From Actinomycetota bacterium (GTDB lineage Bacteria > Actinomycetota > Acidimicrobiia > Acidimicrobiales > Ilumatobacteraceae): 64,000 bases of DNA. Shown in pieces: positions 32,743 to 37,625 of this stretch. The notes under the pieces were generated by a model. The model had not been told where the DNA came from. It was given only the letters and a program-made list of their open reading frames with translations, and searched no databases. Each line of letters begins with the position of its first letter. Position 1 is the first letter of the stretch. The DNA lies in contig VGAC01000006.1 of NCBI GenBank assembly GCA_016870865.1, forward strand, positions 1 through 64,000, in the 5' to 3' direction. The position numbers and the translations under genes were made by a program.

Positions 32743-33171
32743 ATGAGCACACGAAAACTGATACTCACTGCCCTCATCTGCGGCCTTGCGATTCTCGTCG
32801 CGGGCGGTCTCAAGCTGATTCAGGTCGCCAACGACGAAACCGAGGTTCAGGTGCTGGTGTTGGGCGACGCTGCGACTCTCGGCGACATGACCGTGTCGGT
32901 GCTCGACATCGACCGACGCTCCGAGGCGACATTGGTCACGGTGACGATGAGTGGAGTCGACCTTGACGCGGGGGCTGCCGACGGGTGGCGCGTGCTCGCC
33001 GACGGCCGGGTTCATGAGCCACTCGATTCCGATGACCCTGGTGGTTGCCGCACGGTTGCCGCCGGTGAGTCGACGCAATGCACGGTCCGTTTCGATTCGG
33101 TCGAATCGGCCCCGACAGTTGCCTACGTGCGTGCAGGTGAGCAGCGCCAGTGGGCGTCTGGAACTCCGTAG
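32743..33171 (+). CDS. Hypothetical exported or membrane-anchored protein
   Basis: The 142-residue protein has a signal-anchor helix at about 6-26 (LILTALICGLAILVAGGL), then an extended beta-rich domain with two cysteines (GGCRTVAAG and TQCTVRF) that could form a disulfide outside the membrane. The pattern resembles small immunoglobulin-like DUF4352-type exported proteins, but I cannot assign a family. It precedes lpd by 20 bases; TAGGGT overlaps the gap, so lpd may also have its own promoter. Confidence 0.65.
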   Translation: MSTRKLILTALICGLAILVAGGLKLIQVANDETEVQVLVLGDAATLGDMTVSVLDIDRRSEATLVTVTMSGVDLDAGAADGWRVLADGRVHEPLDSDDPGGCRTVAAGESTQCTVRFDSVESAPTVAYVRAGEQRQWASGTP

Positions 33172-33191
33172 CCATTAGGGTTGAGGGCGTT

Positions 33192-34592
33192 ATGGCAGAC
33201 CTGTACGACCTGGTGGTTATCGGCGGCGGTCCGGGTGGTTATGCGGCGGCCTTTTATGGCGCGTCGGCCGGCCTGTCCGTGGCCCTCATAGAAAGGGACA
33301 CCATCGGCGGTACCTGCCTGAACCGCGGTTGCATCCCCGCCAAGGCGTTCCTCGAAACCGCGGCGGTCGCCCGCCACGTGACGCATTCGGCCGAGTTCGG
33401 TGTCAACTCGACAGCGAACGGTGTCGACTTCTCCGTCACGCAGGCACGCAAGCAGAAGATCGTGGAGGGTTTGGTGAAGGGCCTCACCGGTCTCACCAAG
33501 TCGAAAAAAGTGACCTACCTGCTCGGCACTGGTTCGCTCGGGACGGGCAAGACCGTCACGGTCACCGCAGCCGATGGCTCGACGCAACAGGTGCAGGGCA
33601 AGAACCTCATCCTCGCCGCCGGCTCGGTGCCGCGCACCATCCCGGGTTTCGAAGTCGGTGGCCCGATCATGACCTCCGACGAGGTGCTGATGCTGGACCG
33701 GCTGCCGGCACGTGTCGCCGTCATCGGTGGTGGTGCAATCGGTTGTGAGTTCGCCTCGACGTTCGCCGACCTCGGGTCGCAGGTCACCATTCTCGAGGGT
33801 CTGCCCAAAATTCTCCCCGGTCTTGACGTCGACGTTGCCAATGTCGTGGTGAAAAGTTTCAAGAAGAAGAACATCGACATCAAAACCGGGGTCTCGGTCA
33901 AGGGCCACACGCCGAACGGCAGAGGTGGCACCGTCATCGCCTTCGGCGAAGGGGAGAGCCTCGAGGTTGATGCGGTCGTTGTGTCGGTCGGGCGTCGGCC
34001 GTTCGCCGACCTGCTCGGTTTGCAGGGCAGGGCCGTGAAAGTCACCGAGCGCGGATTCATCGAAGTCAACGAGTACTGCGAAACCGCCGAAGCGGGCGTT
34101 TACGCGATCGGCGACCTGATCAACACCCCGCAGCTCGCGCACGTCGGCTATGCCGAGGCGATCGTTGCGGTCAAGCGCGTGTTGGGTGAACCCGTCACGC
34201 CCGTTGCCTACGACCGCGTGCCCTGGGCCATCTACTGCCACCCCGAAGTGGCATGGGCCGGTCACAGCGAGGAAAGTGCGAAGGCCGCCGGTTACGACGT
34301 CGTCGTCGGCAAGCACCAGTTCCGCGCCAACAGCCGTGCAATGATCCTCGGTGAGACCGACGGCCTGGTCAAGGTCATTGCAAAGAAGAACGCCGATGGC
34401 ACCGCCGGACAGGTGCTCGGCGTGCAGATGGTCGGCCCGTGGGTGACCGAGCAGTTGTCGGGTGGCTATCTCGCCGTCAACTGGGAAGCCACGGTTGCCG
34501 AGGTTGCCGAGTTCATCCAGCCTCACCCCAGCCTGTCGGAACTCTTCGGCGAGACGATGTTGTCGATGACCGGCCGTTCGATCAACGCCTAA
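33192..34592 (+). CDS. lpd: Dihydrolipoyl dehydrogenase (E3)
   Basis: The 466-residue flavoprotein has the FAD motif VVIGGGPGGYAAAF, the redox disulfide GGTCLNRGCIPAK (about 40-52), an NAD motif VAVIGGGAIGCEF, and the C-terminal HPHPSL-type active-site element reading IQPHPSLSE with the catalytic His. It reoxidises dihydrolipoyl groups on E2. It is followed 20 bases later by the E2 gene and then the lipB-lipA fusion, so this operon carries most of the lipoate-dependent machinery. TAGGGT lies ten bases before the ATG. Confidence 0.95.
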   Translation: MADLYDLVVIGGGPGGYAAAFYGASAGLSVALIERDTIGGTCLNRGCIPAKAFLETAAVARHVTHSAEFGVNSTANGVDFSVTQARKQKIVEGLVKGLTGLTKSKKVTYLLGTGSLGTGKTVTVTAADGSTQQVQGKNLILAAGSVPRTIPGFEVGGPIMTSDEVLMLDRLPARVAVIGGGAIGCEFASTFADLGSQVTILEGLPKILPGLDVDVANVVVKSFKKKNIDIKTGVSVKGHTPNGRGGTVIAFGEGESLEVDAVVVSVGRRPFADLLGLQGRAVKVTERGFIEVNEYCETAEAGVYAIGDLINTPQLAHVGYAEAIVAVKRVLGEPVTPVAYDRVPWAIYCHPEVAWAGHSEESAKAAGYDVVVGKHQFRANSRAMILGETDGLVKVIAKKNADGTAGQVLGVQMVGPWVTEQLSGGYLAVNWEATVAEVAEFIQPHPSLSELFGETMLSMTGRSINA

Positions 34593-34612
34593 ACACAAAA
34601 CAGGACGCAGAC

Positions 34613-35953
34613 ATGGCAAACGTAACCCTCCCCCAACTCGGTGAAACCGTCACCGAAGGCACGATCACGAAGTGGTTCAAGAGGGTCGGCGATGCGGTCG
34701 CCGCCGACGAACCTCTCTTTGAGGTTTCCACCGACAAGGTGGACACCGAAGTGCCCTCTCCCGTCGCGGGTGTCCTCACCGAGATCAAGGCGAACGAAGG
34801 CGACACGGTTCCCGTCGGTGCGGTGATTGCCGTTGTCGGCGATGTCGGTGCACCGCCCGCCCCCGCACCCGCTGCGGCGCCGTCTTCGGCGCCCGCTCCC
34901 GAACCGGCATCGGCCCCCACGCCCGCTCCGGCAGCGATCCCCACGGCCGCACCGCCAGCGGCCCCCGCACCGACACCGGCACCCAGCGTTGGCGGCGCAC
35001 CGCTGCTGTCGCCCGTCGTGCGTCGTCTCATCGCCGAGAACAATCTCGACGCCGCGGTGATCAAGGGCACGGGCCCCGCCGGACGCATCACACGCGAAGA
35101 CGTTCTTGCCGTCATCGACGCCCAGCGGGGCAGAGTCGCGGCCACACCGGCCCCGGCTCCCGCTGTCGCATCCACGGCGGCGGCACCCGCCAGTGCCAAA
35201 CCCGCCCCGAAAAAAGAAGTGGGCACGGTCTCCGAGGACGGTCGCGAAAAGCGGATCAAGTTGTCGAAGATCCGCAAGCTCACCGGCGAACACATGGTCA
35301 TGTCGAAGTCGGTCAGCCCGCACACGTTCAGCGTCGTCGAAGTCGATTACGCCAACGTCGATCGCGCCCGCGGCAAGGTGAAGGACGAATTCAAACAAGC
35401 CGAAGGATTCAGCCTCACCTACCTGCCGTTCATCTCGCGCGCCGTCATCGATGCAATCACCGAGTTCCCGCACATGAACGCCTCGGTCGACGGCAACGAG
35501 CTTGTGGTGCACAACTACGTCGACCTCGGCATCGCGGTGGACCTCGACTACCAGGGACTCTTGGTTCCGGTCGTGCGTGATGCCGAGACGAAGCGTCTGC
35601 GTGCACTTGCCCGCGAAATCAGTGACCTTGGCGCGCGTGCCAAGAACCGCAAGCTGACGCCCGACGAAATCCAGGGCGGCACGTTCACGCTTTCGAACAA
35701 CGGCTCAGCGGGCTCGGTGCTCACCATGGCGGTCATCAACCAACCGCAGGTGGCGATCATCTCCACCGATGCGATCGTCCGCAAGCCCGTCGTGGTGAAC
35801 ACGCCCGAGAACGGCGAGTCGATTGCCGTCCACCCGGTTGGCAACCTTGCGATGAGTTGGGACCATCGCGCGTTCGACGGAGCCTATGCCGCCAACTTCC
35901 TCTCGAGGATCAAGTCGATTCTCGAGACCCGCGACTGGATCGCCGAGTTCTGA
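34613..35953 (+). CDS. sucB: Dihydrolipoamide acyltransferase (E2) of a 2-oxoacid dehydrogenase
   Basis: The 446-residue protein has one lipoyl domain (residues 1-78, lipoylated Lys in FEVSTDKVDTEVPSP), an Ala/Pro-rich linker of about 50 residues, a peripheral-subunit-binding domain (LLSPVVRRLIAENNLDAAVIKG), a second linker, and the catalytic domain ending with DHRAFDGAYAA, the HxxxDG active site. Actinobacterial E2 proteins of this type serve pyruvate and sometimes 2-oxoglutarate complexes; partner E1 is probably AceE of this window. ATG 34613 follows CAGGACGCAG. The linker gives the region a low-complexity sequence. Confidence 0.9.
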   Translation: MANVTLPQLGETVTEGTITKWFKRVGDAVAADEPLFEVSTDKVDTEVPSPVAGVLTEIKANEGDTVPVGAVIAVVGDVGAPPAPAPAAAPSSAPAPEPASAPTPAPAAIPTAAPPAAPAPTPAPSVGGAPLLSPVVRRLIAENNLDAAVIKGTGPAGRITREDVLAVIDAQRGRVAATPAPAPAVASTAAAPASAKPAPKKEVGTVSEDGREKRIKLSKIRKLTGEHMVMSKSVSPHTFSVVEVDYANVDRARGKVKDEFKQAEGFSLTYLPFISRAVIDAITEFPHMNASVDGNELVVHNYVDLGIAVDLDYQGLLVPVVRDAETKRLRALAREISDLGARAKNRKLTPDEIQGGTFTLSNNGSAGSVLTMAVINQPQVAIISTDAIVRKPVVVNTPENGESIAVHPVGNLAMSWDHRAFDGAYAANFLSRIKSILETRDWIAEF

Positions 35954-35960
35954 AACGCAC

Positions 35961-37625
35961 ATGTCCGCACCGTTGAACGTCCGCTGGTTGGGACGCGTTC
36001 CTTACCGTGAGGCGTTCGCACTCCAAGACGCGCTTTTTTCGAACACCGACCGTCAGTATCTCCTCCTCCTCGAGCACCCGCACGTCTTTACCCACGGACC
36101 GAGTGCCGAACTCGACCGCAACCTGAAGTGTGTACCAGAGCAGGTGGGTGCGGAGTTGGTGAAGGTGAACCGCGGCGGTGACATCACATACCACGGTCCG
36201 GGCCAACTTGTCGGCTACCCGATTCTCTCGCTGGAACCCAAGCACGGCGGCAAGGCCGGCCCCGCCGACACGACCGCCTACCTGCACGGCATCGAACAGG
36301 TGGTCATCGATTCACTCACCGAACTCGGCGTCACGAACGCCTCGCGCTTCGACGGCTATCCCGGTGTGTGGCTGGGCGTCGCCGAAGGTCGCCCCCGAAA
36401 GATTTGTGCCATCGGCGTGCGCCTGACGCGTGGACGTACGATGCACGGCTTCGCACTCAACGTCGAAACCGACCTCACCTACATGCGCGAGCACATCGTG
36501 CCGTGCGGCATTGCCGAACACCCGGTCACTTCGTTGCGCGAGGAGGGCGTTCGTGTGACGATGCGCGAGGTTGCCGATGTTCTTGCGCGACACGTCGCCG
36601 CACGATTCTCGAACGGTACGGTCGACCGTCGCGACGTTGCATGGCTGCACCGTCCCGAAGACCTCTCGCCGTTTTCGCGTGGCGCAGGCGCGGGTGAAAA
36701 GGTGCGTCTCTCCGGCCGCCTTGCACAAGCCGGTGTCACGGGTGGTGTCGCCATCGAGGAACGCAAACCCGAGTGGTTGCGCCCCAGGATGAAGCACGGT
36801 CCGGAGGTTCTGGAGACGAAAAAGGTCGTCCGTGAGCTCGGCCTCGTGACGGTCTGTGAAGAGGCGGGATGTCCGAACCTGTCGGAATGCTGGTCCGACC
36901 GCACCGCCACGTTCATGGTGCTGGGCGAGCGCTGCACACGCGCCTGTGGTTTCTGTCTCGTCGACACCCGCAAGCCGCTCGACCCGGAAACCGACGAACC
37001 AGCCCGCGTCGCGGAGGCGGTTGCGCGCATGGGCCTGATGCACGCCGTGCTCACCATGGTCGCGCGCGACGACCTGGCCGACGGGGGAATGGCGCACGTC
37101 GCTGACTGCGTGCGCGCGATCCGTCGCCGGTCACCACTCACTCGGGTCGAAACACTCATCTCCGATGTCAAGGGAACCGGGTCACTCGACGTGTTGACCG
37201 CGGCCAAGCCCGATGTACTGAACCACAACATCGAAACCGTCGCGCGACTTCAGCGCGCGGTGCGTCCGAGCGCGGGTTACGCCCGCAGCCTGGCGGTGCT
37301 CGCCCGCGGCAAAGCTGCCGATCTCACCACCAAGTCGGGCATCATTGTCGGCATGGGTGAAACCATCGACGAGGTCGAGGCAACCTTGGTCGACCTCGCC
37401 AGTGTCGGCGTCGACATCGTCACGATCGGCCAGTACCTGCGCCCGACCACGAACCATCTTCCCGTCGCACGCTGGGTCGAGCCCGCCGAGTTCGACCATC
37501 TCAAGTCGTTCGGTGAAACACTCGGCATCGGCCACGTGGAATCGAGCCCGCTCACACGCTCGAGCTACCACGCCCGTGAATCCGCAGAGTCGGCCGGTGT
37601 CGCGGTTCCGGTGGTGATCTCGTGA
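35961..37625 (+). CDS. lipB-lipA: LipB-LipA fusion: octanoyltransferase joined to lipoyl synthase
   Basis: One uninterrupted 554-residue frame contains two normally separate enzymes. Residues about 1-215 are LipB: RGGDITYHGPGQLVGYPI, the catalytic Lys in RKICAIGV (about 147) and Cys in VPCGIAEHPVTSL (about 182). Residues about 250-554 are LipA, a radical-SAM enzyme with the auxiliary cluster cysteines CEEAGCPNLSEC (299, 304, 310) and the SAM cluster CTRACGFC (325, 329, 332), and the C-terminal RSSY motif (TRSSYHA). The joined enzyme could hand an octanoyl-E2 directly to sulfur insertion. It starts eight bases after the E2 stop and its own stop overlaps the next start (GTGA). Confidence 0.93.
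   Translation: MSAPLNVRWLGRVPYREAFALQDALFSNTDRQYLLLLEHPHVFTHGPSAELDRNLKCVPEQVGAELVKVNRGGDITYHGPGQLVGYPILSLEPKHGGKAGPADTTAYLHGIEQVVIDSLTELGVTNASRFDGYPGVWLGVAEGRPRKICAIGVRLTRGRTMHGFALNVETDLTYMREHIVPCGIAEHPVTSLREEGVRVTMREVADVLARHVAARFSNGTVDRRDVAWLHRPEDLSPFSRGAGAGEKVRLSGRLAQAGVTGGVAIEERKPEWLRPRMKHGPEVLETKKVVRELGLVTVCEEAGCPNLSECWSDRTATFMVLGERCTRACGFCLVDTRKPLDPETDEPARVAEAVARMGLMHAVLTMVARDDLADGGMAHVADCVRAIRRRSPLTRVETLISDVKGTGSLDVLTAAKPDVLNHNIETVARLQRAVRPSAGYARSLAVLARGKAADLTTKSGIIVGMGETIDEVEATLVDLASVGVDIVTIGQYLRPTTNHLPVARWVEPAEFDHLKSFGETLGIGHVESSPLTRSSYHARESAESAGVAVPVVIS

Follow-up and report, generated by a model that had tools for sequence, protein, structure and literature searches.

Does a single gene in a member of the Acidimicrobiia encode both the octanoyltransferase LipB and the lipoyl synthase LipA, and, if so, might joining the two do more than place them on one chain? 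LipB, LipA, and the pathway in which they act are textbook biochemistry. E. coli and M. tuberculosis have this pair of domains as well, with the same catalytic residues and the same lipB-lipA operon order, but in those organisms the two are separate proteins, whereas the protein considered here is one chain with a linker that spans 22 to 88 aa in the fusions compared. The gene lies within the window, which is the whole 64,000-nucleotide stretch of DNA that was analyzed. The features that matter for the argument are the following:

33150..34592, + strand, E3 dihydrolipoyl dehydrogenase (TIGR01350 above cut-off)
34496..35953, + strand, E2, actinobacterial SucB-like dihydrolipoamide acyltransferase (TIGR02927; one Biotin_lipoyl domain)
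35961..37625, + strand, fused LipB-LipA gene, stop codon included (554 aa; single open frame)
36000..36596, + strand, LipB octanoyltransferase domain, residues 14-212 (Pfam PF21948; TIGR00214; alignment to 1w66, M. tuberculosis LipB)
36600..36755, + strand, linker and LipA N-terminal extension, residues about 214-265 (variable, poorly conserved; 239-248 predicted disordered)
36759..37583, + strand, LipA radical-SAM lipoyl synthase domain, residues 267-541 (Pfam Radical_SAM; TIGR00510; likeness to 5exk)

Translation of positions 35961-37625 yields 554 residues, and the only stop is the terminal one. The stop codon of the E2 gene ends at 35953, and 7 nt separate it from the start of the fusion. 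A second in-frame ATG is found upstream, at 35886 within E2; alignment of homologues supports a start at about 35961 over this alternative. Promoter and terminator scans gave no signal above chance. The same protein exceeded the NCBIfam cut-offs for both enzymes, with 132 bits for lipB (TIGR00214, cut-off 83.55) and 346 bits for lipA (TIGR00510, cut-off 310.25). Pfam matches were LplA-B_cat at residues 14-212, Radical_SAM at 320-476, and LIAS_N at 267-304, the last of these below its cut-off.

Alignment with solved structures paired residues 4-216 with M. tuberculosis LipB and residues 253-544 with M. tuberculosis LipA. Lys147 and Cys182 align with the Lys/Cys dyad of M. tuberculosis LipB (1w66), which we take to be Lys142/Cys176 in literature numbering. 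The LipA half has the CX4CX5C cysteines of the auxiliary cluster (C299, C304, and C310) and the CX3CX2C radical-SAM cysteines (C325, C329, and C332). The dyad and all six cysteines were invariant in 78/78 fusion proteins, which, as far as conserved residues can indicate, rules out a degenerate half. The C-terminal R-S-S-Y motif of LipA is also present, with R533 conserved in 76/77, S534 in 75/77, and S535 in 76/77 fusions.

The two Pfam matches lie 54 residues apart; roughly 30 of these make up the actual linker, and the others belong to the C-terminal helix of LipB and the N-terminal extension of LipA. Across the 78 fusions the linker (equivalents of residues 219-267) varied from 22 to 88 aa and was the least conserved part of the protein, with a mean entropy of 2.17 bits for residues 213-266 versus 1.31 bits for LipB and 1.07 bits for LipA. 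A D-L-x-x-F-S-R-G stretch nevertheless recurs in the linker of many fusions. The first-pass annotation of this DNA had described one intact frame directly behind the E2 gene, retention of the LipB Lys/Cys pair and the six LipA cluster cysteines, and a linker of 30-40 residues. The frame, its position, and the catalytic residues were all as described, and the linker estimate was about right. The alignment with single-domain LipB and LipA that the annotation had proposed is the one reported above, in which both halves matched the M. tuberculosis enzymes with their catalytic residues aligned.

An AlphaFold2 model built with 61 fusion sequences had a mean pLDDT of 89.4 and a pTM of 0.91. Segments of at least three residues with pLDDT below 50 were limited to residues 239-248 and the C-terminus. 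The best Foldseek matches were M. tuberculosis LipA (5exk; 50% identity, TM 0.93 by target) for the LipA part and M. tuberculosis LipB (1w66; 43% identity, TM 0.83) for the LipB part. The model predicts that both domains are well formed and in a confidently predicted relative orientation, the latter because a pTM of 0.91 would imply it for a protein whose domains have about 220 and 290 residues.

The first-pass annotation had also called for a search for the fusion in other Acidimicrobiia, and that search found it in abundance. A survey of genomes of the same class gave a match in 363 of 395, and about 288 Acidimicrobiia genomes, by hand count of inspected genomes only, have both domains in one frame. 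This count comprises 147 genomes from the class survey, 10 from the phylum survey, and 55 and 76 from further search rounds; 41 of the 55 were full-length and 14 were in two or three pieces of one open frame, and 71 of the 76 were full-length and 5 were in pieces of one open frame. Two genomes within the count (G107 and G354) have one reported in-frame stop or frame slip each. Carriers include single-contig assemblies, for example G002, G027, and G157, and the named records matched by the fusion query include Acidimicrobiales, Ilumatobacteraceae, Acidimicrobiaceae, Microthrix, Ferrithrix, and Acidiferrimicrobium.

Among the matches listed in the phylum survey, each of the 37 matching class members had the two domains fused in one frame, and the single-frame fusion was found in none of the 285 LipA-bearing genomes of other classes. 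Ten of those 285 genomes, again among the matches listed, carry lipB and lipA in tandem in the same frame with one or two stop codons between them (G579, G501, G750, G744, G675, G552, G710, G571, G551, and G619); their alignments span both domains or reach well into LipB, and nine of the ten junctions were read. Even the weakest full-length fusions scored above 500 bits against the fusion profile. Therefore, an overlooked fusion outside the class would be expected near the top of the list, although strongly diverged ones may escape. No fusion was present among the best matches listed for plasmid records, where the eight places with more than 80% coverage were two pieces each. The joined gene is present in nearly every sampled member of the Acidimicrobiia, and the sampled relatives outside the class have two separate genes. 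The fusion seems to be a molecular marker for the class.

There was no clear LipA or LipB match in 12 re-searched class genomes, and in G376, also re-searched, there was just a weak match to part of the radical-SAM region. The lack of a match in 10 of 268 high-quality class genomes agrees with incompleteness. In one genome (G052, contig C83, locus L135), lipB and lipA occupy two different frames that overlap. The L135 pair falls outside the fusion clade in both the LipA and the LipB tree, and the same genome has a normal fusion (L136), so the unfused pair probably reflects contamination or gene transfer. Three other candidates for the unfused state were set aside: the different or broken LipB and LipA frames in G215 (L139) and G208 (L137) look like frameshifts, and the locus in G200 is interrupted by a contig edge.

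Phylogeny points to one origin. The LipA tree (support 0.997) and the LipB tree (support 0.909) each gathered all sampled fusions in a single clade without any standalone sequence. Such monophyly would be expected if a lipB-lipA operon had given rise to the fusion just once, in the class ancestor or earlier. The tandem arrangement in the ten genomes of other classes is a plausible precursor state. Adjacent lipB and lipA in an E3-E2-lipB-lipA operon would have been joined in frame a single time, at the base of the Acidimicrobiia or close to it, and the fused gene would then have been kept as the only route of lipoate synthesis.

We consider it very likely that the product is a bifunctional octanoyltransferase/lipoyl synthase responsible for both steps of de novo lipoylation, that it descends from a one-time fusion at the base of the class, and that it is the only route of lipoate synthesis. 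The two activities, their substrates, and their chemistry are those that knowledge of the families would predict. The LipB half would take octanoate from octanoyl-ACP as a thioester on Cys182, with Lys147 as its partner, and would then pass the octanoate on to a lipoyl-domain lysine. Sulfur insertion at C6 and C8 would fall to the LipA half, which would use its radical-SAM cluster (C325/C329/C332) together with an auxiliary cluster (C299/C304/C310) that is sacrificed.

A sequencing or assembly error that joined two neighboring genes was considered, as the assembly behind the window is a draft of 42 contigs. However, about 288 class genomes from many families, some of them single-contig assemblies, carry the single-frame fusion, which effectively rules out such an artefact. 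Another possibility is that an internal start before the LipA domain yields free LipA alongside the fused chain. All 76 fusion genes that were compared have an in-frame ATG, GTG, or TTG near the junction, and in 47 of the 76 a Shine-Dalgarno-like stretch precedes one of these starts. However, such start codons are frequently expected by chance, the GTG, TTG, and ATG at the junction in the window have no Shine-Dalgarno-like stretch, and the best-conserved start position is within the LipA domain. The positions are too inconsistent to support a separate LipA product, which we regard as improbable.

The remaining question is how the halves work together, and here the alternatives refine the bifunctional reading rather than dispute the two activities. 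There is about an even chance that the halves are two independent enzymes that share one chain, gaining 1:1 synthesis and colocalization while the octanoylated carrier is released and rebound. The variable, least conserved linker and the predicted disorder in its middle favor this arrangement, but the pTM of 0.91 implies one confident domain orientation, and the sampled class includes no clear split of the fusion. It is also conceivable, though rather doubtful, that the docking of the two domains lets a lipoyl domain, or just its lysine arm with the octanoyl group, move from one active site (LipB) to the other (LipA) while it stays bound. The first-pass annotation had suggested that a bound lipoyl domain could be modified without release, and the predicted fixed arrangement of the domains makes this possible. 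Kinetic coupling between the LipB and LipA halves we infer only weakly. If a hand-over without dissociation does take place, the fusion would be a naturally occurring single enzyme for the whole of lipoylation, kept across an entire bacterial class.

The nearest described fusions differ in their parts. Of related fusions, NCBIfam lists only an LplA-LipA one (NF053790, LplA_LipA_fuse, bifunctional lipoate--protein ligase/lipoyl synthase), as an exception family. Its lipoyl/octanoyl-attaching domain precedes LipA as in the window protein, but its N-terminal half is an LplA ligase rather than LipB. The window protein scored 329.9 bits against this model, below the cut-off of 800, and matched only profile positions 330-605, which is the LipA part. 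Within the lipoate-assembly machinery, Lpl(AB)/LplAB proteins are fusions of lipoate ligase domains (PMC10332631); they join two domains of one ligase and lack a lipoyl synthase, in contrast to the LipB-LipA fusion. The main text of that broad 2023 survey of lipoate assembly describes only the ligase-domain fusions (PMC10332631). The literature searched yielded no paper on a LipB-LipA fusion; it covered few subscription reviews, so that an earlier mention is possible. Both halves may already be named by automated annotation. The fusion joins consecutive pathway enzymes, extends across the class, and probably defines this clade. As a single-chain system it could show if there is physical coupling between octanoyl transfer and sulfur insertion, and how both enzymes recognize one lipoyl domain. 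It is also a warning for any genome annotation in which such proteins are named after only one half.

The gene order E3-E2-LipBA is the usual one: where the flank is long enough, most loci have an E2 gene that ends no more than about 170 nt upstream of the fusion. Loci from a marine subset of the class (L087, L088, L094, L105, L107, and L113) instead have E3 directly upstream of the fusion, and E2 does not adjoin it. The best match of the E2 in the window was TIGR02927 (SucB_Actino), at 408.8 bits, just below the cut-off of 423. The first-pass annotation had named this E2 as the substrate. With its one lipoyl domain it probably is one, but it would not be the sole acceptor because the source genome also encodes a GcvH-like protein (the glycine-cleavage H protein) and a free lipoyl-domain protein. 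Most likely three carriers are served, the adjacent E2, GcvH, and the free lipoyl-domain protein, as judged from the gene content.

That genome is a 1.95-Mb, 42-contig draft assembly. A search of it at 96% completeness gave no further LipA or LipB, which argues against separate lipA and lipB elsewhere as the main copies, although separate genes may lie in the missing part. Contig C3 encodes an LplA/LipM-like protein of 244 aa (L002:1363-2097, - strand) that matches PF21948 with 48.6 bits and the NCBIfam lipoate ligases with only about 25 bits. It could contribute to lipoylation, which counts against the fusion as the sole route. The short, free-standing lipoyl-domain protein on contig C2 (L145:1492-1821, - strand) has a domain of about 80 residues with an ETDKVEND motif and adjoins an E1-beta-like gene. 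This pair suggests a dehydrogenase complex that has its lipoyl domain on a protein of its own and not within an E2. Two further frames, with 625 and 650 residues, also matched Biotin_lipoyl and are by their size probably biotin carriers.
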